A model generated the notes under the pieces. That model did not search any database, was not told the origin of the DNA, and worked only from the letters and a program-made list of their open reading frames with translations. From Clavelina lepadiformis (Eukaryota > Chordata > Ascidiacea > Aplousobranchia > Clavelinidae): a stretch of 64,000 nucleotides of DNA. Below, piece after piece: positions 28,108-56,471 of this stretch; positions within the stretch are counted from its first letter, which is position 1; the number at the start of each line of letters is the position of its first letter. The stretch is taken from the NCBI RefSeq assembly GCF_947623445.1, contig NC_135240.1:4960001-5024000 (forward strand), in the 5' to 3' direction. A program made the translations under genes and the position numbers.

Positions 28108-30142
28108 TTAGTAAGCTAAGCAGTCATCACCAAAGTTACCAACTGCGGCATTCTCATAATGTCCGTATTCTGGTATTGAGTGACAGATCGCTTGTTCTAA
28201 ACAAGAATGCAAAGATCTTCGCAGTTTAATAAAGTAAACTCATCTTTGCATTGTTAAATCGAAACCCCTCAAATAAATCTTAAAACATCGTGATTAACGA
28301 CGTGACCATAGAACGCAGACAAAAACATGACATAATGGTTTTGATGTTGTAACTTAATCGTCACTCATCAGGACTACCCTCTCATGGTTACTTCTGGGTA
28401 ATACGTCAACATATAGGTGGTTGAAATAGAATTCAACAGCCTTATACAGCAGCAAATATTGTTTCTAAAACGTAATTAAGTTATTATTAGTATAGCACTT
28501 AGTTCTAGTAATTCTCGAAGTAGTAATTGTAGTTAATCGATTAATTTATAAAAACTAGTGAGGACTGATTCTACACAACTTGAAAAGAAACTGCCTGAAA
28601 AACTATTTATTCACTCACATAGTTTTCCACCAAACATGTTCTGTCATGTCTGAGATGATGGACAACTTCAGAAATACCGATAAAAGAACTGTTTTCAATT
28701 TGTTGCAATATTTGATCAAGAGCTATAAATATACCAGTTTCTCCACAACCATTCCTGCAAAGAAAAACTTTTATATGGCCAAGTGTGGCGTAGAATGCTA
28801 TGTCAATTGCGCTCTGGCAACATCAAGTGATGTGTTACTGGCTATACTAGCTGTGAGGGCAATTTTCAGACACAGATATTTGTGTAGCAATAGTTGAGTC
28901 TTATATCAACATATTTCGTCCCCGTCCGACAATGTATTTGTAATGGTTAGACAATATTGCTCTGTTGTGAGTTAAGGGGTGGGCAAACTTGTACAATGAG
29001 TCAATTGTGGAAAACTGCAAACACCAACGAGCCGCAAAATCAGTAGCATCAATACAAATATACGGTAAACAATGCATGGATAATGAGCAGTAATGGATAT
29101 TACTATTCAGCTAGAAGAGCCATAAAAAACATGTCGCAGCATCCGACCCGCGGTTTGCTCACCTTTGTTATATAAGTATAATAAATAACAAAATAAACAA
29201 ATACTCTGAAACAAAAACAAGCCAAATAAACAACTCTGAGATTTTTAGAGCATTAACCAGTTGAAATATAAATTTATGATGGAAAATAAAATCGAGTAAC
29301 ATTCACCTGCAATGAAATACAACTGGGGAATCGCTCTGTACAGTGCAGTCAAAGGCACTTTAATATTTACAATACGTTGAAAACCTCTATTTTATCTCCA
29401 TACCCTAATGGGCTGGTCCACATTAAGTCCAGGTAAGTATGATAAGTATGATGAGTCCACATTCTGGCTTACAATGAAGACTTTCACGAAGTCAGGAACT
29501 TTTAAAAATAATATATTGAGGGGGTATAGAAATGATATAATGTTTGTATAATGATACAGAATTATTGCTATGATGGAATTGTTTAAGCCTTTTGAAAACT
29601 TCTTCTAATGATCATTTGATGATATTATTATTCCGTCCTTGATATGGAAAGATGTCTATGCATAGGTCAAATGAAAAGAAAAGGGTAACAAATTTCAAAC
29701 AGTTGCTAGAAAAACAGTACAAAACAATTTTTGTAAATAAAGACAAAATTGTTTTGCAAAAACAATTTTTCCCGTAAGTTGTTGCAATATAACAAAAAAA
29801 ATACCTTGTTGCAAAGCTTGCTTTGTGCGAAATAGATAAATACGCTGAGAGAAGTCCACATAAAATGTTCGTTGTCACTTTAATACTTGATATAAATTTG
29901 CAGTACGACCCTGAATCTTCCAGGAAAGTCAAAAGAAAATACATGGGTGCCGAGTTAGGGAAGCACCCTACTTCGTATCAAAATAATTCCATCTTCTAAA
30001 CATCTTCTACTTAATAAATTAATGAAATGAAATTGAAAATTGCAGTTCCAAATTGAATCTATTGACTCAGCTAATACTTATCTTTGCAAATAAGATGAGG
30101 CGATTTACCTGAGCATTGTTCATGAATTCTGCAAAAGCAATG
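28108..30142 (-). pseudogene. second PTP gene, altered active site, broken
   Basis: Remains of a PTP domain matching the large gene exon by exon. 30142-30109: (S)IAFAEFMNNAQ. About 29450-29390: a WPD-loop counterpart reading LMWTSPLGYG. End of the next exon at 29307: SPVVFHC. 28754-28619: RNGCGETGIFIALD, 136 nt like its counterpart at 8714-8579. 28464-28354: KQYLLLYKAV. 28196-28108: a tail containing GHYENAAV. The joined catalytic loop is HCRNGCGETG: the Cys remains but the Arg is Glu, and WPD is changed, so it could not act as a phosphatase. Between the WPD and HC segments the frame shifts by one with stops, without room for an intron, and several middle exons were not found. It is probably a pseudogene of a pseudophosphatase; a partly expressed gene is not excluded. 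Confidence 0.6.
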
Positions 30143-31078: not shown

Positions 31079-32782
31079 TTATGACGTAACAAGCCCACTA
31101 AGTTTTAAGCTTTCATTCCATAGAAATCTTATAGCATCTTGGTCACGGGCGAGTGGTTCTAGTTCTTCATGCTGGCAATCACTAAAATATTCCCCGCTAT
31201 ATTTCGTGACGTCATCATCCAAGGCACAATACAAAGTGGTCTGACATCCATAATAAGGAGTCCTACGAAACAATTATTTGGTTATTTTGCTTTAATTACG
31301 TCATAGAAGCGTAAAGCAGCTTACCTTGTAAAGAGCAAAACTGGCAACCTGATGAGAGCTCGAATGTAGAGGGGAAGCCCCATCGCTTGCCCAGAGTCGA
31401 TCATTCCTGACGTAATAAAGATTAATTTATTGCTACACTACGACAAGCGGCGTCACTTAAACTCGCGAACTACACAACTCTGACTAAAATGCATCTTTCA
31501 AACATAACCATACTAATTTATCGTCACAATTAACTTATTATGACTCAACACTACGAATTATTTGCACACAGTCAAACCCGGATGGACGGCGTATGTTGTG
31601 ACGTCAAATTTCTTCAATTCTTCGTCGAGGGCGACATTGAACATGACATTGGCGAGTTTGCTGTCACTTGCTGTTTGGAACATTTCCCCTAAACTCGTGA
31701 CGTCATTGTACATCGTTTCTTTGGTAACATTGCCCACCCTGTGACGTAATAAAAGCTAATGGTATGTATTGGCAAAAAATCACAACCGCGTTTTTCTCCA
31801 CTAACTTGTAGGAGTGTGCGGTGAGATTTATTATCCGCACAGGCCGCACCGTGGATTGCTTCTTCATCTTGCCAAGCAGCAGGTTGGTGAGGAGAAAATG
31901 ACCGAGGTGGTTGATCGCGAAAATCCGGTTTATTCCAGATTTCGCTTTGCCAAATACGGACATTACACCTGAAACAACGACACGTCACAATGCTTATTAT
32001 GATCTTCATTAGTGTTGATAGGTATAAAGTACTTGTTAAGATTTCTATGTTGGCCATGCTACCGCCATGTGCTTTCTTGGTATGCATTGTGATTCGTATG
32101 TGGAGTAATAACGTTCATGTTCAAGACTGTCTAAAATACAAGAGATTCTGCCGAACGTATTATCGACTTAGATCAACAAATAATATCACGAGAGTAGCGA
32201 TATTAACAATTAGAACTTTAACTTACCCGCATTGTTGATCAAATAATCAAGGTATTGTTCGGTTTCGTCAAATTCTTTCGCGAAATCACGAACAGAATCG
32301 AGATCTTCCAAGTCAATATACATGCACCTGACCTAAAAGTAAATCAACATCTGAAAGTATAATGACGTCCCCACACTACGTAAGCAAGAGAGATGACGGG
32401 GTGTTTTCCCTGATATTCACTTCGTCATTTCCTGTCAGTTCAATGATTTCTCTCCTCGCTTCCTCCGATCTCGGCAAGTTCCTCGAAGCAATCACAACCC
32501 TGGCCCCGGCTCTGGCGAGTTCGATGGCGGTTGCTTTCCCTATTCCGGTGTTTCCCCCTGACCATTAAATCACAAAATAATCTTCTTTTTACTCAACATT
32601 GCCGTGAAAATCTAAGGTGGGCTCTTCGCCATATATGACGTCATTCAGTTACCTGTTATTAGAACTGTTTTGCCGTTGAGAGATTTCGTGACCTCGTAAA
32701 CTGGACCTTGTTTAACGAACTTGATCCAAAGGTAGCCTAACACAGCGACAGTGATGCAACAAAGAGTTCTTTTTGTCGTCAT
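31079..32782 (-). CDS. RDH-like short-chain dehydrogenase, catalytic residues lost
   Basis: Seven exons join in frame: 32782-32653, 32557-32421, 32332-32227, 31968-31806, 31738-31578, 31406-31325 and 31262-31079, giving 320 residues. The N-terminal helix ([15 protein letters not shown]) would anchor it in the endoplasmic reticulum membrane. The Rossmann motif [10 protein letters not shown], the ASRN stretch after beta-2 (NADP-type) and NNAG are intact, as in the RDH11-14 family of retinol dehydrogenases. The serine motif N-L-S-S of its neighbour reads N-L-T-A here, and the Y-x-x-x-K motif reads A-S-D-S-K, so both the catalytic Ser and Tyr are replaced while Lys stays. No stop or frameshift is seen, so it looks like a maintained pseudoenzyme that may still bind cofactor. 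Tandem partner at 34830-37238. Confidence 0.85.
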
Positions 32783-34325
32783 TGCTATGCGTTTATCTGT
32801 CTTAGACTCAGGCTGAAAAGTTGATGGCGGCTGAACCGAGTTAACCAAAACTTTACAGTAAAATAAAAATAAGATGTATACTTTGGCACTCTGAAGGTCA
32901 ACTTTGTTTTTGATTTTTCTACACGAGCTTTCGCAAGCATAAGCTTGCTTCTTCAGGTGTACTAAGACTGAATGCTTACATATATCGCCTGAAGCAGCAG
33001 TCAGACCAAACGTTTTTGTTAGACTTGACTTTGACGACTGCTCAGAAATTTTAATGGACCACGACTTTTGATGACTATATCTGCTAATTCTCTGACGTAG
33101 TTGCAGAAGCATAAACTTTGAGAGACTGTCGGAGAAATTTAAGAGACTTTTTCGGTCTTCAAAAACACTGGTCACACCACACACTGTAAAAACGAACGGT
33201 TTTTAAATTTGTCTATGACGTAACATAGCTCGTGCGTGACAATACATAAACAGGAAGCGTGTCACGTGCAACCGAGACCTGACTCGCGCTAAACAAGCTG
33301 CAACACGACGTAAGAATGGCGCAAAAAATACGACCATGTCATGAAGTTTGTGAAAAAGTGGCTGACGTCACGTGTTTTAGCTACGACCTCTCAAGCAAGT
33401 CACATGACTACCTTAACCCCCCTCCCCCCACCCCCCTAACGGCGAGTTCCCACTGCAAGCCTGCCTGTCTCATGTGGCCTGCTAGCTCTTTTAATGTTGA
33501 TATAATACCAGCATCTAGTGATCCTAGTACCTCGTATGCACTTGCAGTGATGAAGTAGGAGTAGCAAAATACGAACGACCAAGAAACGTTTTAACTTCGA
33601 GTCCAAAATGAATTTCAACATCGCGGTAAAATCAGTCTTAAGACCAAACGACATAGCAAAACAATTTCTGTCATGCGGAACGTCGCGTGATTATGTCGTC
33701 ATAAAAGGCCTCAGGTAAATCGCGGAAAAGAGATAATTACAGCAAACACAGGAAAACAAAAACCAATAAAATGGACGCCATCGCAAAACCAAATTTGTTG
33801 GTGTTTCAAATTGTTGTTTTTTCCAATCGCGTGAGCTTTGTTGAAAACTGCCCCAAATAGGATGAGACAACGATGGTCATTCATGACGTAAGATAATTTA
33901 TAAAATTATATCGATAAATTTAAAATACTAAAATCGTGCAAACGTGATCTCGACAGCAAAACTCCCTGATTTTAATAATAAAAATAAGACAAAAATATAT
34001 TCAAAATTCACTTTCTACTCGTTTTCTGTCATTAACTTCGTATTATCTTGACGTCTTTAAACCTATTGCAACTGTGTCTCACACCCCAATTATCTTTAGA
34101 CCTATAGTTCATTTTGTAGCCAAAACAGCTATTTCGTTGTTTTACTTAAATCTCTTACACCCCCCAGTGTTGCTTAAAAAACAAAAACGTCAAAACAGTG
34201 CTCACTCTGCAGCCCACAATGTCGGCCCGGGGTTAAACCTGAACCTTTTAACTTTGGCTTGAGCGGAAATTTTTAGAAAACCGAAACGGAACAAAACTTC
34301 TAAATTTGTTTGATTTTTTGATGCC
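32783..34325. other. 5' flank of SDR gene and spacer
   Basis: The in-frame stretch upstream of the SDR start (to about 33184) is probably 5' UTR. The chosen Met at 32782 begins the conserved membrane anchor. A TGACGTCA palindrome lies at 33363-33370. A C-rich run with alternating CCCCC and A lies at 33416-33440. No other gene was seen. Confidence 0.4.
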
Positions 34326-34410
34326 ATGACAACTGCTCCTCTGCTGGCGACATTTATCGTTGTCGCTTTTCTAATCACAGAGTTTCCACCTAAATATTTT
34401 AACTTTGCTG
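34326..34410 (-). pseudogene. decayed SDR exon 2 fragment
   Basis: Matches exon 2 of the SDR gene at 36907-37043 over about 80 bp: ATGACAAC..GCTCCTCT.CTGGC, TGTCGCTTTTC and TTTCCACCT..ATTTTAACTTTG are shared on the plus strand. The glycine motif is damaged, and no other exons of a third copy were found. It sits between the two intact SDR genes, so a third tandem copy has been lost or only an exon was duplicated. Confidence 0.55.
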
Positions 34411-34829
34411 GCAGCTATATGGCATCGGAACTCGGAAGGGTCTTCCCCTTCCACTACTTGTCGCTTCACATGGTTCAACTGGGAATACAAAACGACCACT
34501 GCAGTGTCGACACCAAATGATAATTTGAACAACATTCTCTACATCAATTAATTTATTAAGATAAATCTAGAATTGCATATAAATTGAAATTAGTTAAACT
34601 ACAAATTTGAAAATCACATGTTGTGCAATTTTGTGTTGAAACCTGAATGAAATTAATACCTTCAACAAAGATAATACATCACGCATATTGTGATGTTAAG
34701 TAACAACGTTGTCACATAGAAGGATGTACAAGAACAAGAACACAACTTCAATTATCTACCACATATTATGGGATGCTTCCTTCAGCATAATGAAAGACAA
34801 ATCTCAATCATAGCTACAAGGCCCGTGAT
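34411..34829. other. 3' flank of second SDR gene
   Basis: AT-rich. TTTATT at 34552-34557 (AATAAA on the minus strand), about 275 bases after the stop, is a likely poly(A) signal for the SDR gene ending at 34830. Confidence 0.45.
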
Positions 34830-37238
34830 TTATTTCGTGGATTGTCCGGTCAACTTTAGACTGAAGTTCCAAAGTTCTTGTCTGGCAGTTTTGTTGACGG
34901 CGTGAGATTGTAGTTCTGTGTGTTGGCAATTTGTGAAATAGTCTCCACTATATTTCACCACATCATCGTCCAACACGCAATACAGAGTTGTTTGCGCCCC
35001 ATAAAATGCATTTCTGGTAACAGATAAAAATCATTCTTTGCTAAACTATCGGCCTTTTCGTGTCATTATGAAAGACCATCTATGATAGCATGTAACTGAT
35101 ACATCAGGTGATTCACACCAGAACGTACAAGCAAGGACGTAGAAATTATGTGACTCCCAATCTACGTACCTCACAAATGGCCGAACCACGATCGAAAAGA
35201 AAGTCTTCAAGGCTGGCGAAAGACCATCACCGAGCTCACTCTCAATCATACCTTTGAAGTAAGATCAAGTTTGCGTTGGTTTTAAAATATAAATGCTTAA
35301 AATAAGACCGAATTTATAGGATTCTTGACGACATTCTTGTCCGAGAGCTTGCCGTCAAACAATCGAGCGTTGGTTGTACACTTAAACTAATTAGGCGAAC
35401 TTTATTTTAAATTTGAATTAAGTGGTTTTAAACATGGAACTATCAAATTTTCCATGCTTGTTTTTAGGTTTAGTGGCCATGCTAGATGCCATTAGAAAAT
35501 TAATACCATCAGTATTTTCTTGCACGTCTTAAGCGGTTTAGGCTTTGTCGCTTATTTTCCCGTGCATTAGCGCATGCCATTCAATTACAGCAGTAATCTT
35601 TCGTCCTTAACGTACCAATGGCGAAAAAATAAAATGATTGATTGAACTTATGACACCTGACCTAGTGTCGACGTCTCTGGCATCGTGTTCGTCATACAAT
35701 GAGTGTCAGTGCACACAAAGACCACGTCGCGGGAGAAAACAAGACAATATCAGTTGATAAACATTTCTTGTTACGATAACCTCAATTCTCGTTTACTGCA
35801 AATTGACCTCAATTTGCTCTCATTGATTTTGGCAACGTGTGTAGATGTGAAGGCAGAGAAGCCAAACAGGGTTAATAAATTCTTGGGCTAATATTTCTCT
35901 CATTGTGGTCTCGAGCTACAAAGCCACGTTGCTGCAAAGTATCACTCGCTAATCACGTGTTGAACGCGTGGTCAGATTCCAAGTTGGTTCAAGTAACTCA
36001 AGTGACGCGATGGTTCACGTGACACTGAGTAACATCGTCGTCATGATCCGTTATAACGTATCGCGTTACTTTAAGCTTTTGTGTTTTGTTCTGATGCAAA
36101 AAAATAAAACACGAGACACAATGAAAATATACCACGTGATAACGCAAAAAAGCGGATGAAAGTGACACAATAAACTGATGTTTTACGTCATAACTGCTCT
36201 CCGAACGATGGTACACCAATGCGGCCTATACCAGCATTATTAGATATAATTTTGAAAAATAAACAAACTCCATTCAATTACCTGGATGTACAGCGTATGT
36301 GGTAATCTGGAAATCTTTCAGATCCTCCTGAAGTTGTTGAGTGAAGAATATGTTTGCCAGTTTGCTTTCGCCGTAAACAGCGAACATGTCAAAAGTTGAA
36401 GAGACATTCTGATACATTTTCTCCATGGTTGGTTGACCCATTCTGATCAAGAAACCATCTGTTTTATTTTTTATAAGTTCCAGGCAAGAACCAAACAACA
36501 TGTTGTTGAACTTACTTATAGATATCTGAAGACAGGTTAATGATCCTAACTGGGCGAGATTTGGACTGACTTTTCATTTTGTTGAGTAAAAGATCAGTGA
36601 GGAGGAACGGTCCGAAATGGTTGATTGCAAAAATCTTATTCACTCCACACTTGGCAAATCCAGAAACAGTTAATATTCCTATGATGTAAATTCATTTAAA
36701 AATAAAATAGTTCAAAATAAACTAACTCTACGAACCTGCATTGTTGATGAGGTAGTCGAGATATTTTTCGCTTTCATCAAATTGTTTCACAAACTTTCTT
36801 ACAGAGTCAAAGTCACCAAGATCGAGCTGCATGGCTCGAACCTAAATACAAGCCAAGCTTAAAATTTATTCTCAACTCCACCGTGATAATAACAGACATC
36901 ACATACATCACGGTTGCCGCTTTCTTTAATAATTTCATCTTTAACTTTGTTTGATTTCTCTAAATTTCTCGATGCGATGACAACACGAGCTCCTCTTCTG
37001 GCAACTTCCAAAGCCGTCGCTTTTCCAATCCCAGCGTTTCCACCTGAGCATTTTAACTTTGATAATGACAACTGGCTACTAAGTTATCGAGCAGTGTTAA
37101 GTACCAACCAGTGATAAGAACGGTCTTTCCATTCAACTTCTTGTCACTTTCATAAACTGGTCCTCGCTTCACATAATTCAACCAGTAATATCCAACAACC
37201 ACTGCAATGACAGCACTAACCAGTAATTTAAACGACAT
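34830..37238 (-). CDS. RDH11-14-like retinol dehydrogenase (SDR), intact
   Basis: Seven exons, 37238-37109, 37043-36907, 36841-36736, 36678-36516, 36442-36282, 35251-35170 and 35013-34830, encode 320 residues. Each exon has exactly the length of its counterpart in the gene at 31079-32782 (130, 137, 106, 163, 161, 82, 184 nt). Features: N-terminal anchor ([15 protein letters not shown]), cofactor motif [14 protein letters not shown] typical of NADP preference, NNAG, serine motif N-L-S-S, and Y-G-E-S-K with the catalytic Tyr and Lys followed by LANIFF, then HPG. Members reduce retinal or oxidise retinol, or act on lipid aldehydes, with NADP(H), facing the cytosol or lumen from the endoplasmic reticulum. 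Substrate cannot be read from sequence. An acceptor-like TACTGTAG lies 4 nt before the ATG. It is probably the active member of the pair. Confidence 0.88.
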
Positions 37239-40548: not shown

Positions 40549-41380
40549 CGGTCAAACGTCATATTCTCATATTCCGAAATGTGCTCATTCTGACACAGCT
40601 TGACCTGAAAGACAATTAGACTTAAAATAAGCTTTGGTGTGAAAAAACCTAGAATCGTGCTCAATATTTCATTCAAAAGACAGACAAATGCAAGAAATTG
40701 ATAAGACGATTTCACACAGACACAGTAGAATGCTTAAGTCTAAAACCAAACTTGTAATAGACTCGCCTTCATTTTCATCTCTGTTGTCGTTTATGACGAT
40801 ATCATATGGATTGTCTGAAACATGCTTCACTGACTTGTACAACAGCAGATATTGTTTCTAAAACAAGAATTTATTTAATAAACATTGTATTAATGCATTA
40901 TCCGTACATAACGTTTATCCACTTACATAGTTTTCCACCATACATGGTCGGTCTTGCCTTAATTGACGAACAATTTCCAAAACACTGGTCAGAGATTTAT
41001 TTTGAATGTGCTGCGATATTTGATCCAGGGCAATAAAAGTTCCAGTCTCCCCACAACCATTCCTGCAATGGAGCAATAACAACCATAACAACGTATATTA
41101 AACAATCACATCAACATAACGATTGTTAGAAAAACCATTTGAAAAGTTATTTGGTAAATTTAGTTTCTGTGAAATTTACCTGCAATGAACTACAAGTGGC
41201 CCATTGCCTGCCCACATCCTGTTGGTGTTGCGTGCGAAGTTTTCTTTACAAGGCTTGTTTCTTCGGTTCCATTGATATCAGTTATCCACGAGTTAACGTC
41301 AACCGTGTACTGACTGTTTGGATTCAGACTAGAACATGTTTGTGATTTCTCCGTCTTATCTTATCTATGTACCACAGACC
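40549..41380 (-). pseudogene. chimeric fragment: FN3 piece joined to altered PTP exons
   Basis: Reading leftwards: 41377-41227 is about 94% identical by eye to the FN3 exon at 12315-12460 of the large phosphatase gene (SQYTVDVNSWITDI). It runs straight into the end of a PTP exon (GPLVVHC, donor at 41180). Next are 41062-40927 (136 nt, [14 protein letters not shown]), then 40857 onward (KQYLLLYKSV), and a possible last piece at about 40608-40549 containing SEYENMTF. The loop HCRNGCGETG matches the locus at 28 kb, so these PTP exons descend from the same inactive form, whereas the FN3 piece comes from the active gene. The upstream PTP exons are missing and the FN3 frame does not lead into the HC segment. 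It is probably not a functional gene. Confidence 0.6.
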
Positions 41381-47140: not shown

Positions 47141-49066
47141 CAGCTCAAATTTTTCCCAGGTCAGACCTAAACTTTTGCTTTTTGTTCCACCAGTCATTTT
47201 ATTAAAAGATGGTTCTTTATTAAGCCCATATTAGTTGTTGTTTGATACTTTACTTATTATCGTCGTTTCAAAAATAGAACGAGTAAATTTGTTTCCAAAA
47301 ATCTGCAACCATAAAACTTTTTTCGCTCGATCCGCATTTCGACGCTTGCTGAAGAAGGCGGGAAGCCTTTAAATGCGGCGAAGTTCGGCACAAAAAGGCA
47401 GACTGTCAGCCATAGCTTTAGCGGTCTAACAATTGTTACCAAGCTGGTTATTACAGATATGACCGATCAAGGCTTACAAGTGGAGGCTACTGTATGCGGT
47501 GATCACGACCACTCATGACCTGAGTTGAAAAGAGGTAGCGTCATAATAAGCTATAAAATCTGGCAAATTATTGTTTAAAATGACTAAAATCGCCTAAATC
47601 AGGGGCTTCTCTTACTGTTGACGATCCGACATAAATGATAGAATATACGTAAAAACAGCAGAGATAGTTCATGAACGAGTCAAACATTTTACTTTTGATT
47701 TAGATATGTTTAGATATGTATGATTTAGATATTTCGAGGAAAATGTATAAATACTGTAAAACTAAAAACGTTAATTTCGGTGTTTCGATCTAAAATGTTA
47801 AAATGCAAAGTCACAACAGGGCGAACAGTTTTGGCAGAACACAGCAATCGAGCGCGCTCGTGCCAGGCTCAGTATGTCGCGGTGTGTGAAGAGCTCACCT
47901 AATCAGACTCTGCAATGTCCAATCGCCTTCTTTGAACTTTTTATAAGGACGTCACCTTGTAGCATTCTGCTGTGTCCGTTTTTTTTTGATGAGAAAGCTA
48001 TTCTGAGGGCACACGAATTAAAAAACGCGAAAACTATAAAATTTTGGAACGTGGAAAAGACAGACTATTAAGTCAACACTTATCAAAAATAAAGAAAAAT
48101 AAATAAATATGATGTTTTACTGAGCCACGTATAACCACTACTACGATTAAGTTACCGGAGATTATTCACTATTTTGAACTGTCATACTATTTGAATGCTA
48201 TAAAATGTTCAATATGAAATATATAAATCAGTTACCTTCGAAAACCTGTGATAAGCGAGAGCATAACCTGCTTTATGAATTGCCGCAGCTTTTTCACATG
48301 TAATCATGGGAATAATTTTTCTCATTTTGAGGTATTTAAGCGTTTTTCCGTGGTAAAGACCAACAATTTGTTCGCTTTGCGCATTTTGGGCGGCGTAGCC
48401 CAACTTATGACGTAGTTTTAAAAACGCTTGGCCCGTTATGAATTGTAATTCAAACCACAGCGTTGGAAATGAGGCGGCATTTTTGCTTCTACGCATGTCA
48501 GCCAAAAGTCAGGTAAAAACACTGTTTCAGCGAGAATAGACATTACGTGGTGAAAATGGGGCAAAACAATTTAAATTTGCCCCAGGGTTCCAGTGGTTCG
48601 GCCACTGACCTTCGATAGTCGATTTGAGGTAATCTTTAGTTATAAACCACATGTGACTTGTGTTAAAGAGTGATGGAGCACGTCCAAAAACTTGAGATAT
48701 TCGTCGTTTACCGACGTGTTTATTTTGCAAAACGTCAGTAGTATAGTTAAGGTGGTGTTGACCAAATCTATATATGGAGGAAAAGTATAAATTTTTTCAA
48801 GACTTCGCAGTTACCGTTATTAACTATAATGAGTCACCCTAACTCAATCTGCACATATTCTGAAAATGGTTGTCTTATGGACTACATGGAATCACTTGAA
48901 TAAGCCTCTTTCCCCCAACCAGGTGTCGACGAAAAACACCCACGCAAACACATTTTTGATTTCAAATTAAGTTTTTCAATTTAAGATTTAGATAAGATTA
49001 AGACAATAAGCTTCAAATTAAAAGTTTTTTCTTTATTTTGTCACAAAATAGCTCTTCTGCTTCAAA
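47141..49066. other. intergenic, upstream of collagen-pentraxin gene 1
   Basis: No convincing gene. A 98-residue minus-strand frame at 48209-48505 has no recognised motif. The last 24 bases before the ATG at 49067 (AATAGCTCTTCTGCTTCAAA) are shared with the second copy at 54453 and are probably 5' UTR. Confidence 0.4.
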
Positions 49067-50849
49067 ATGCTTAAGGTCTTAATTGTTTTTATCGTCGTGA
49101 GTTCGGTTTCTGCTCACACCGATGAAGTCTGCTTCTGTCTCCGCGCTGGAGGAGTTAGCAACCAATCAGAAATCGGTCCTCCTGGCACACCAGGGATCCA
49201 AGGCCCTCCAGGTCCTCCAGCAGCTCCCGGACTACCAGGTGACGATGGACTTCCAGGGATCCAAGGTCCTCCTGGTCCTCAGGGAGTTTCTGGACCGCAA
49301 GGTGAAGTTGGTCCTCCAGGGATAGATGGTGTTGATGGTGCTCCAGGCATAAGCGGTGCAGATGGCGAATGCACGTGCGATGCGGATGCACAAATTGCAA
49401 ATCTTCAGCAACAAATATTTGACCAGGAAGGTAATTAGGTTTCCAGCAAATTTTGCTTTTACACCGATATACAGTAATTTATAATGGTTTCTATGAGTTG
49501 TGTTTTGAGCAATTAGTATTTTAATGAGAAAATAAATCCTTGGTATTATGTTTCAGCAATTGTGTCGGATTTGCAAGGCAGGCTTGATGAAGTTGATGCA
49601 AGGTTACATGAAGAAGGTGAGTTTTGTGGCAACAAAATGAAACTTATTTAAAGAATGCAATTAGACTGGGGAGAAATATTTAAAGAATTTATTGTAGTAA
49701 TGTAACAACTAATACTTCTACCAACTTCATATTTCCATACAGATCACTGTCCAGCATCTTCCTTTGAATTTCCTCCAAGTCCGAGTGTTCAAGATTACGT
49801 CGATTATCAATTTCACGTTCCGGGCATGCGCGAGTTCACCATGTGCATGTGGCTCGAGATTCCTCAAGCAGATCTTGACGTTTCAGTTACTGCTATCGTC
49901 AGTTACGCCGTATCTGGGGAGGACAATGAAGTGTTTCTTCTGGTCCGCAATGGAGTCTTACGCTTAATTCTATCCGATGATTCGGACGACTTTTATTGGT
50001 CCCCACCGCCATCCCCAGCAAAGGTGAGTTAAGTCACATGACGCTTATTCTGTAAAACATTAAATGGAGTAGAGGGAGCAGCAATGGGGAGCAGCAATGG
50101 GGAGCAGACTTTCACAGATGAAAAGTAAAGCAAATATCAACACTATCGGCTTTCACCGTAAATGTTTGATTTAGACACTCAGTTGCGTGCTCTACTAACC
50201 TCTGTATATCGCTGTCAACTAAAACAATTTGTACAACACAACATCTTTGTTCGGTAGAGTCATATCTGTGTCTGGGCGTCGAGTGATACTAACGTAGTAG
50301 GGCTGGCAGTGGATGGAATCATGAGAGAGAATATCACATTGGCTCACAATCCAACTCGCTCTGGAGGAAGACTTTTCCTCGGCCAGGACCAGGATTCTCT
50401 CGGAGGTGGTTTAGATGCGAATCAGGCGTTCAAGTAAGTGCACTTATTTTGAAAGTAAAATAATTTCTTTTTGTTTGTCCAAATGAGAACTTTTGTGTTT
50501 GTGTGTTTGGAACTTTTGTGTTTGGAAACCGACAAGCAACCATCAATCACTAAGGCTATAAGCTATTAAGTCGGATTGATTTGTTACCGTTTAGTGCTTT
50601 AAATTTTTAACGTGTCGCTTTAATGGAGGTTATTTAAAATCTTTAAACGCTTTTTTCCTTTTATATTTCAGCGGAAATTTGACCAATTTCTTTATCTGGC
50701 CTCGGATTCTTTCACAAGACGAGATTGGCGACATCGCGTGGCAATGTCACTGTCCCAGAGATTACGTCATTGATCTGTCTTTGGGAAAATCTGTCACAAA
50801 TGGCGAAGTGTCTCACAGCATGCCTGATATCTGCCCAACTGCACCATAG
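49067..50849 (+). CDS. secreted collagen-stalk, pentraxin-like protein, copy 1
   Basis: Five exons, 49067-49430, 49557-49616, 49743-50023, 50258-50433 and 50672-50849, give 352 residues. Order: signal peptide ([16 protein letters not shown]), Cys pair VCFC, about 21 Gly-X-Y triplets with one AAP break, Cys pair CTC, a short neck with heptad spacing ([12 protein letters not shown]) encoded by the 60-nt exon, then a C-terminal domain of about 210 residues. That domain has the pentraxin-type core [15 protein letters not shown] and the C-terminal strand [13 protein letters not shown], so it should fold as a pentraxin/LamG jelly roll. The plan parallels collectins (stalk, neck, head), with trimers held by the Cys pairs. 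A role in binding carbohydrates or microbes in body fluid is inference. AATAAA follows at 50857-50862. Confidence 0.85.
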
Positions 50850-53189: not shown

Positions 53190-54452
53190 GAATAAGACAG
53201 TCACTATTCGGTCATCAAACAACTTGCATTGAAAACTCAAAAAGACTCTATTAAATCGCGTTATGTTATCAAAAGATTTCTCATAATCACATAATTATAA
53301 TGGGCACCGTTATTCTTTTAGAAATTTGCAGCCATTAAACATTTCCTTTCTTCAGTTGTCCCACAATTTGACGATCTTGTCATAAGTTTTCGAAAAAGGT
53401 GGGACGTCTTTAAATTCAATCAAGATTGGTAGAAAAGCGCAGATCCTCAGGTAGCTTCAGATGGCAAGCAACTATTTCTAAACCGGTTAAGACAGGATCG
53501 ATCAAGTATTCGAAGTATACAATGATAATGATTCATGCCTTCAGTTTAAGAATGTTTTACGCCCAAATAGCTATTAAGTTACATTACAGCGTAAGAAAAA
53601 AGTAAACTGTTGTTCTCGTTAAATGGGGTTTATATGACAAAAAAGTACAAGGTTAATCAGGTCATTTATTAATTACATCACTTTAGATTTCTATTGACTT
53701 GTCTAAACACGAATAAATTCTCGTCCATTCATTTGAAGCTTGATAACTAATAACTTGCTTTAATAATAATAACGCTTTAACGGTAACTTGCTTTTTTCAA
53801 GGCGTTTGTTACGTCTTGGCATCATGAAGCCAGCGCAGAGTTTAAACTTTGTCCGGTTTACATTTTCCCTCTAAGTATTTACCACAATTGCGGTGATTCC
53901 GGTTTTGTTAAATCTCATTTTACGCAAAAAGCGCAATCCATCCAACAACTGCATATGAGTCGCATATGCTGAATAGCTTAACATTAGCAAACGCATTACG
54001 TCATTTAACTTTGCGGTGATTTGACAACCTCGTTCTTTTTTTCATGCGATGTCAACAGTTTTATTTTTCGTTTCCCCCTAAAAAACTCTGCATTACAATA
54101 GGAACTTGTGTACCTTGCATGGTTGTAGACAGATCTTCACTTTAAAAAAGTTACACAAAAGGCAGGACAGGTATTTTCAGCGCGGAATATTTCTTCAGCG
54201 CAACACTTGCCATTGTACAAAGTTGTCGCACGACACTCTCATGTTAGCAAAAGACTGTGGGAATATACTGTGGTTGGTCTTCTGCTTCAAAAAAACGCGA
54301 AAGCTTATCGAAGCCGCTTGTCTAAGAACCGGACGCTTTCCACGATAATCTAAAATCGAAGTTATTCGCTTCAAATTAACATTGTTTCAGAAAATAATTT
54401 TTAAAGTAAAATATTTTCAATGCATTTTTAGAAATAGCTCTTCTGCTTCAAA
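53190..54452. other. 5' flank of collagen-pentraxin gene 2
   Basis: No gene was recognised. The 24 bases before the ATG at 54453 match those before copy 1 and follow an acceptor-like TGCATTTTTAG. Confidence 0.4.
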
Positions 54453-56471
54453 ATGCTTAAGGTCTTAATTGTTTTTATCCTCGTGAGTTTGGTTTCTGCT
54501 CACACCGATGAAGTCTGCTTCTGTATCCGCGCTGGAGGAGTTAGCAACCAATCAAAAATCGGTCCTCCTGGCCCACCTGGAATTCAGGGCCAACCAGGTC
54601 TTCCAGCAGCTCCTGGACTACCAGGTGACGATGGACTTCCAGGGATCCAAGGTCCTCCAGGTCCTCAGGGAGTTTCTGGACCGCAAGGTGAAATTGGTCC
54701 TCCAGGGATAGATGGTGTTGATGGTGCTCCAGGCATAAACGGCGCAGATGGTGAATGCACGTGTGATGAGGATGCACAAATTGCAAATCTTCAGCAGGAA
54801 GTATTTGACCTGAAAGGTAATATAACTTTCTAGAAAGTCAGCTGATTTGCTTTTACGCCGATAAACAATATTAATTATAAAAGTTTTTGAGCAACTTTAG
54901 CTTACTTTATTTACTCTTAAAAAGAAACAGTTATTAAAGCCGACAACATCAACCTTTGATTTGTAATGGAGCAATGTGCTCGGTTTTGTGTTTCAGGTCT
55001 TGCGGTGACTTTGCAGACCAGGCTGAAAATAATTGATGCTAAGTTACAGGAAGAAGGTGGGAGTTTTGATTTTATATAATTGTGTTTATTTGAAGAATAC
55101 AAATAAGCTTAAGTGCTTAAAATATTTAATTCCAAACTTTTTTGTTGTGCTATATATTGATCATAACTTTTTACCTTTATCATTGACCAGCCATGTCTTC
55201 TGCATTTCTGGCCCTAAAATGATAATTATTTGAAAAATGCCTTAATTTGAGTACTCCAAGGATTGTGTTATGCTCAATATGACAAGTAATACAAGAAATA
55301 TTTAAAGAAACTTATGTAGTATTGTAACAATTAATACTTCTACCAAATTCTCATTTTTACCCAGATCTTTGTCCAGCATCGTCCTTTGAGTTTCCTCCAA
55401 GTCCGAGTGTTCAAGATTACGTCGATTATCAATTTCACGTTCCGCGCATGCGCGAGTTCACCATGTGCATGTGGTTCGAGATTCCTCAAACAGACATTGA
55501 CGCTTCGGTTACTGCTATCGTCAGTTACGCCGTATCTGGGGAGGACAATGAAGTGTTTCTTCTGGTTCACAATAGAGTCTTACGCTTAATTCTTTCCGAT
55601 GATTCGGAAGATTTCTATTGGTCGCCACCACCATCGCCATTAAAGGTGAGTTACTTGTTGTGCAGAACATTAGATGTAGTGTGCTCCTACCGAACAAATT
55701 TCCATAAATAAAAGTAATCCTAAAATAACCATATCATCAGTTTTCACTACAAGTTTGTGATTTAGGAAATTAACGGAGTGATAATTGCGACCTTGACGGG
55801 TGAACCCTTATGACCTTATCGATTTACAGGATTTGTAAACTTATACATGGTTTTGTGTTCGTGTGGGTGTAGAGTCATATCTGTGTCTTGGCATCCACTG
55901 ACACTAACACAGTAGGACTGGCAGTGGATGGAATCATGAGAGAAAATATCACATTGGCTCACAATCCAACTCGCTCAGGAGGAAGACTTTTTCTCGGCCA
56001 GGACCAGGATTCTCTCGGAGGTGGTTTAGATGCGGATCAGGCGTTCAAGTAAGTACGGTTGGTCGGAAGGTAGAATAAGTTCTCTTGATGTGTCCGATTG
56101 AATGAACGTTGCGATATTGACAAGCAATCATTAACAACAGAACAAAGCAACTTAATCTCAAAAATTGCAAACTCTTTAAAAGATTTGTTATATATCTTAA
56201 ATGATTAAAAGCATTTTTTATGTAAAGGCTCACCTACAAATGTTAGGGAAAGTTAACCAATCTCTACATATTTTATTTCAGCGGAAATTTGTCCAATTTC
56301 TTCATCTGGCCTCGGATTCTTTCACAAGACGAGATTGGCGACATCGCTTGGCAATGTCACTGTCCCAAAGATTACGTCATTGATCTGTCTTTGGGAAAAT
56401 CTGTCACAAATGGCAAAGTATCTCACAGCATCCCTGATACCTGCCCAAATGCGACACCGCCAATAAGATAA
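54453..56471 (+). CDS. secreted collagen-stalk, pentraxin-like protein, copy 2
   Basis: Tandem paralogue of the gene at 49067, with exons 54453-54816, 54997-55056, 55365-55645, 55873-56048 and 56282-56471; the first four have identical lengths (364, 60, 281, 176 nt). It encodes 356 residues: signal peptide, VCFC, Gly-X-Y stalk, CTC, a neck ([13 protein letters not shown]) and the pentraxin-like head ([17 protein letters not shown], where a Trp of the core reads Leu; [13 protein letters not shown]). The head and stalk are nearly identical to copy 1; the neck exon is the most diverged part, which could favour homotrimers over mixed trimers. The C-terminus differs (NATPPIR against TAP). Same orientation, 3.6 kb apart. 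Confidence 0.85.

Follow-up and report, generated by a model that had tools for sequence, protein, structure and literature searches.

The SDR gene on the minus strand at 31079..32782 of the window (the whole 64,000-nucleotide stretch of Clavelina lepadiformis DNA analysed here, C1:4960001-5024000), hereafter gene A, most likely encodes a pseudoenzyme kept by selection, a reading to which we give a probability of roughly 0.68. Both the catalytic Ser and the catalytic Tyr are replaced by Ala, 53 of 57 residues that are invariant among complete relatives are kept, and a dN/dS ratio of 1 is rejected on the branch leading to this gene. The features on which this reading is based are collected in Table 1.

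Gene A retains an SDR scaffold but lacks the catalytic Ser and Tyr

Gene A consists of 320 codons (963 nt including the stop codon) in seven exons with the same lengths as those of its tandem partner, gene B (130, 137, 106, 163, 161, 82 and 184 nt). All six introns are GT..AG, and a gap-free alignment with gene B revealed no stop, frameshift or indel. A splice alignment guided by B rather than by A gave identical exon boundaries but stopped one residue before the last codon; the exon-5 donor, GTTTGA, is weak and reads GTTTGT at the same junction of the active paralogue c5_3156p. The protein matches Pfam PF00106 (adh_short) with 98.2 bits, and that of gene B, with the motifs NLSS and VYGESK, does so with 128.7 bits (cut-off 26.6). 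The TGGNTGIG motif is found at residue 43 and NNAG at residue 122, and the gene A product has a classical SDR scaffold that is probably anchored in a membrane. The model given in the preliminary description, with seven exons, splice sites, frame, cofactor motif, NNAG and Lys intact, was thus recovered in full.

In gene A, Ala175 (in NLTA) occupies the position of the catalytic Ser and Ala202 (in TASDSK) that of the catalytic Tyr, so that only Asn144 and Lys206 are present of the Asn-Ser-Tyr-Lys set of an active classical SDR. Codons 174/175/202/206 read ACC/GCA/GCA/AAA, compared with TCT/TCA/TAC or TAT/AAA in three active copies; because all three bases of codon 202 are changed relative to the active copies and the frame is unbroken, a sequencing error is unlikely. 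In an alignment with the solved SDR PDB 3rd5, the TA of gene A faces SS, of which we take the second Ser to be the catalytic one, and TASDSK faces AYSQSK. The changes from NLSS to NLTA and from YGESK to ASDSK that had been noted by eye are therefore as first stated, and neither chance nor misalignment can account for the motifs, given that gene A aligns without gaps to B and also aligns to a solved SDR. Catalysis in classical SDRs uses the Tyr as general acid/base; the Ser keeps this Tyr and the substrate in position, and the Lys lowers the pKa of the Tyr and holds the nicotinamide ribose. Without the Tyr and the Ser, the product of gene A should not be an ordinary dehydrogenase; it lacks residues that catalysis in the family requires, which is the mark of a pseudoenzyme.

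Table 1. Coordinates and catalytic state of gene A, its neighbours in the window and related genes elsewhere in the genome.
Feature	Position	Strand	Description
Gene A	31079..32782	minus	Ser, Tyr lost
Gene A exon 1	32653..32782	minus	start codon; hydrophobic N-terminal anchor (by eye)
Gene A exon 2	32421..32557	minus	TGGNTGIG cofactor motif
Gene A exon 3	32227..32332	minus	NNAG at its end
Gene A exon 4	31806..31968	minus	Asn144 and NLTA
Gene A codon 175	31817..31819	minus	GCA (Ala), catalytic Ser position
Gene A exon 5	31578..31738	minus	TASDSK
Gene A codon 202	31669..31671	minus	GCA (Ala), catalytic Tyr position
Gene A codon 206	31657..31659	minus	AAA, catalytic Lys present
Gene A exon 6	31325..31406	minus
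Gene A exon 7	31079..31262	minus	includes stop codon
Probable relic	34293..34535	minus	between A and B; resembles exons 1-2 of a third family copy, with frameshifts
Gene B	34830..37238	minus	tandem partner of A; 7 exons; Ser-Tyr-Lys intact
Lys-less paralogues	C5:224-243 kb, 483-511 kb, 1.60 Mb; C8:17.96 Mb		7 open genes; Lys of YxxxK changed to Asn/Asp
c5_241p, c5_483p, c5_509p, c8_17960p			Lys lost
c5_1603m			Lys lost; Asn to Asp
c5_226m			Tyr, Lys lost
c5_231m			Asn to Ser, Ser to Thr, Tyr and Lys lost (all four changed)

Gene A is an old copy with a conserved core

Gene A is an old copy, with 0.72-0.89 of synonymous sites differing from each of ten paralogues in either half of the gene, which is saturated or nearly so. 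Pairwise NG86 dN/dS was discarded as a figure for gene A since dS is saturated, and codon models and counts of invariant sites were used instead. As an invariant set we took the 57 residues that are identical in the active copies B, c5_238p and c5_3156p and in L090-L093, four further genes of this genome that are more distant and that, according to approximate models, all have Ser, Tyr and Lys. Gene A keeps 53 of the 57, having lost S165V, S174T, S175A and Y202A. The complete sets (57/57) of B, c5_238p and c5_3156p offer no comparison because these genes help to define the set, and the Lys-less genes described below, which keep 39 to 50 of the 57 residues (7 to 18 lost), are a fairer one. By a post hoc hand calculation, both catalytic sites would fall among four random losses with a probability of 12/(57x56), or about 0.004.

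No rate excess in gene A was found by 12 Tajima relative-rate comparisons, in which A was paired with B, c5_3156p or c5_238p and four outgroups were used; the chi-squares ranged from 0 to 2.78 and were all non-significant. When 316 codons of A, c5_3156p, B and c5_238p were fitted with a codon model, the common omega was 0.108, and fixing omega at 1 on the A branch gave a lnL of -3595.01 compared with -3567.16 when it was free, a cost of 27.9 lnL; the free omega of A (0.025) lies at the branch-length bound and is not an estimate. Relative to a common ratio, omega 1 on the A branch cost 19.5 lnL in exons 1-4 but only 4.06 in exons 5-7. The dN/dS comparison proposed in the preliminary description rejects a value of 1, here by a codon model of paralogues from the same genome. 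The claim of selection that went with it stands for the scaffold, which outlasted the loss of Ser and Tyr (omega 1 rejected, 53/57 residues kept), but not in full for the period after the loss, since averages of dN/dS on the A branch span time when the gene may still have been active.

Gene A might instead be a very young pseudogene that encoded an active enzyme up to a recent loss of Ser and Tyr by drift and has yet to accumulate stops. A recent loss after the last strong selection would be invisible in paralogue data from a single genome, and decayed copies of the family exist, for example c5_233m with three stops, c5_481p and c4_3819p. However, any neutral phase must have been short. When a neutral terminal segment was added to the codon model with codons 174, 175 and 202 excluded, the best of eight lengths was zero, and a segment of 0.2 changes per codon cost 1.96 lnL (the terminal branch of B is 0.85). 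Hits at two of the 55 other invariant sites give a similar bound of 0.155 neutral changes per codon, assuming that 3/4 of changes alter the residue. A neutral terminal phase longer than about 0.2 changes per codon is therefore disfavoured, this being a bound on post-loss selection from the paralogues of one genome rather than a direct estimate. In addition, two or more base changes that alter the residue are required for Y202A (TAY to GCA), an unlikely event over such a brief period; for S175A and S174T one such change each suffices. Taken together, these results make a young pseudogene unlikely.

Eight of 11 open family members lack a catalytic residue

Protein searches of the whole genome (209 Mb in 95 contigs, among them those labelled C1, C4, C5 and C8) returned 131 exon-level matches with gene A as query and 138 with gene B, counts that include A, B and distant SDRs, and the strongest matches outside the window were on contigs C5, C4 and C8. 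Twenty regions were modelled with a custom spliced aligner, and one (c6_7643p) was dropped as a distant SDR. Nine of the 19 remaining family regions are open and full length, giving 11 members together with A and B. Ser, Tyr and Lys are complete in only three of these, B, c5_238p and c5_3156p, and at least one of the three residues is missing in the other eight open full-length members modelled, as itemized in Table 1.

The ten family regions left out of these counts are decayed, partial or partly covered. Ser, Tyr and Lys are present in two of them, c5_233m, which has three stops and unrecognisable exons 1-2, and c5_3151p (C5:3151.4-3153.6 kb), which adjoins the active c5_3156p and has two apparent frameshifts. 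Only exon 7 is recognisable in c5_481p and c5_522p, and only exons 1-3 in c4_3819p; c5_501p has 25 nt of exon 1 and altered junctions, c4_3828p has a partial exon 1 and an altered NNAG region, and c5_525p, c5_543p and c5_551p are copies in a duplicated block with partial sequence. A further remnant near C5:477-479 kb is not among the modelled regions. Several copies are plainly decayed, indicating that loss is common in the family.

The relic between A and B is probably of the same kind. Its score of 91 is insufficient by itself, since other stretches of the window score up to 88, and the real evidence is the readable match GGNSVIRKATTINVASRGA.

The regions C5:481-511 kb and C5:522-553 kb are closely similar blocks about 41.8 kb apart that carry the same SDR genes, and reflect either recent segmental duplication or a haplotype left uncollapsed in the assembly.

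The Lys-less clade and apparent gene conversion

The whole-protein tree and the tree of exons 5-7 each unite the seven Lys-less genes in a single clade with 100/100 support. Their Lys codon is AAT in two genes and GAT or GAC in five, compared with AAA in gene A and the three active copies, and such codons would be expected of one route from Lys through Asn to Asp. Since gene A keeps AAA and falls outside this clade, it lost its residues separately, and the best reading of the sequences is that the family has undergone two independent catalytic losses. Placement of gene A inside the Lys-less clade (Thr174 is common to A and three Lys-less genes) was unsupported in either tree, and neither tree fixed its attachment relative to c5_3156p and B.

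Selection after the loss can be followed more directly in the Lys-less genes, since all branches within their clade postdate the loss of Lys. In a codon model of nine genes on a simplified tree with multifurcations, omega on these branches was 0.40 for exons 1-4, where omega 1 was worse by 16.9 lnL, and 0.43 for exons 5-7, where it was worse by 24.7 lnL. With a within-clade omega of about 0.4 and omega 1 rejected, we conclude that the Lys-less members have been maintained by purifying selection after the loss. On the remaining branches (B, c5_238p and the clade stem together) omega was 0.23 and 0.20 in the two sets of exons, and two ratios were better than one by 2.4 and 5.7 lnL, indicating weaker constraint inside the clade. 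Because more of the invariant core has been lost in the Lys-less genes than in gene A, they may differ from it in what they do. These paralogues are predicted to be catalytically dead, although the Tyr is present in five and the Ser in six of the seven, and Lys mutants of the plant SDR iridoid synthase are reported to show little change or to have 10-20% of activity (PMC6172241).

Identity between copies drops along the genes. In six pairs, each of two Lys-less copies or of a Lys-less copy and the active c5_238p, identity is 87-98% in introns 1 and 2 but only 44-78% in introns 3-6, and among Lys-less pairs the dS of exons 5-7 exceeds that of exons 1-4 by a factor of about 2 to 8. Gene conversion or recombination appears to keep the cofactor half common to the copies as the substrate half diverges, and the pattern suggests that conversion has also taken place between c5_238p and Lys-less copies. 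Whole-gene trees and dN/dS need care because of this drop, and the analyses were split by halves for that reason.

A candidate role for the gene A protein

The most familiar pseudoenzymes belong to the kinases, phosphatases and proteases, and SDRs commonly act as oligomers. NMRAL1/HSCARG, an NADPH sensor and an atypical SDR from a different subfamily, is a natural protein with an SDR fold that lacks the usual catalytic Tyr. Lacking both Tyr and Ser, the gene A protein would be incapable of the normal proton relay and hydride transfer, and it should still bind NADP(H). It may use the SDR oligomer interface to pair with an active member of the family, for which B is the obvious candidate given its tandem position, and could then stabilise this partner or tune its activity. 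Our tentative choice for the most likely mechanism, at somewhat less than even odds, is that the protein acts in this way, with no catalysis of its own, as partner or regulator of an active paralogue, and it was chosen on the precedent of DHRS3. The DHRS3 variant Y188A is reported no longer to reduce retinaldehyde but still to bind and activate RDH10, and the natural DHRS3-RDH10 pair is mutually stabilising (PMC7022914). DHRS3 Y188A resembles gene A in being a Tyr-to-Ala SDR, in its case one that cannot catalyse but activates an active SDR; however, it is a laboratory mutant of an enzyme, and gene A is a natural gene for which a partner is only proposed. Dead relatives kept beside active ones, like gene A, are also represented by FAM20A/FAM20C and by an inactive S-adenosylmethionine decarboxylase homologue, but these have other folds, and for pairs of the FAM20A/FAM20C type the partnership is proven (PMC10211241), whereas for gene A it is postulated. 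Retinoid binding and partnering of the active copy, both suggested in the preliminary description, are thus putative roles. Alternatives to partnership are binding of a cofactor or ligand without a partner, or a changed reaction.

If the reaction has changed, the gene A protein would still catalyse isomerisation, cyclisation or slow reduction by means of Lys, Asn and the cofactor, and Lys206, Asn144 and the cofactor motifs are indeed present. Protochlorophyllide reductase (LPOR), an active light-driven enzyme with an SDR fold, has Thr-Ala aligned with the NLTA site of gene A in the T. elongatus chain, but unlike gene A it has Tyr and Lys in the aligned stretch, the alignment being weak. PRISE reductases (PmMOR and iridoid synthase) are members of the SDR superfamily that, like gene A, lack the canonical triad and yet are active, and the iridoid synthase Lys mutants mentioned above remain active; however, PRISE reductases belong to a different subfamily and have an active-site Tyr, and the PmMOR Lys result is contrasted with that of iridoid synthase, implying that Lys matters in PmMOR (PMC6172241). 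Both kinds of reductase thus have a Tyr at the active site where gene A has Ala, and we consider altered catalysis quite improbable. Finally, an artefact of the assembly or splice model can be set aside almost entirely, since, although the exon-5 donor is weak and the bases rest on one assembly, a second guide gave the same boundaries, the codon differences involve multiple bases and a frameshift is absent.

Gene A may be one instance of the conversion of a whole SDR family to non-enzymes, an idea that we put forward as possible, with slightly less assurance than the partner role. The family would have undergone at least two losses (Ser and Tyr in gene A; Lys-Asn-Asp in the clade of seven), conversion would keep the cofactor half uniform while the substrate half diverges under selection, and the proteins would act as NADP(H)-sensing or ligand-binding partners coupled to the few active members. 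If most full-length members of one SDR family in a single animal are dead yet selected, the fold is useful beyond redox chemistry. The natural variants in this genome (Ser and Tyr lost, Lys lost, all four residues changed) make the partner idea directly testable.

Family assignment and other features of the window

Human RDH11, RDH12 and RDH13 have an N-terminal anchor, as gene A probably does, and a C-terminal tail that is probably related to that of gene A, and Rdh10, Rdh16 and RdhE2 belong to other SDR families. The RDH11-14 label of the preliminary description is doubtful. Like gene A, human RDH11, RDH12 and RDH13 (SDR7C) are classical SDRs with seven exons, but the exon phases of gene A, derived by hand from exon lengths, are 1-0-1-2-1-2, compared with 122221 in human RDH11 and 122222 in human RDH13, and gene A has Ala at the catalytic Ser and Tyr; the phase formulas of RDH14 and DHRS13, which belong to this human family as well, are other than these, and those of five Ciona SDR7C genes listed in Table 3 of the same source are different again (PMC9859523). 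The label is thus weakened, although membership is still possible since phases vary within SDR7C. In tunicates, Rdh10, Rdh16 and RdhE2 are reported as single-copy in four species (PMC5882950). None of the best 25 of 213 bacterial or archaeal NCBIfam SDR families matched by gene A reaches its cut-off, the top match among them being PRK06197 (161 bits, cut-off 268). A search for COX1 had no result. Among the matches listed in the open-access literature, there was no natural SDR family of such pseudoenzymes, and no open-access paper was found that joins retinol dehydrogenase with pseudoenzyme.

The usual tyrosine-phosphatase signature is CxxGxGRTG. Elsewhere in the window, an isolated tyrosine-phosphatase fragment on the minus strand at 28610-28822 (PF00102, 36.5 bits) reads CRNGCGETG, with Glu in place of the phosphate-loop Arg. 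A similar phosphatase-like reading occurs near 41062 on the minus strand, where the 20-residue piece at 41003-41062 has no Pfam match, and these may be pieces of pseudophosphatases. On the plus strand, two similar tandem sets of open frames at 49052-50849 and 54438-55711 look like secreted collagen and pentraxin genes. Frames of the first set, the only one compared with Pfam, match collagen with 40.7 bits and pentaxin with 22 bits, below the cut-off of 25, and we infer that the collagen- and pentraxin-like frames form one gene.
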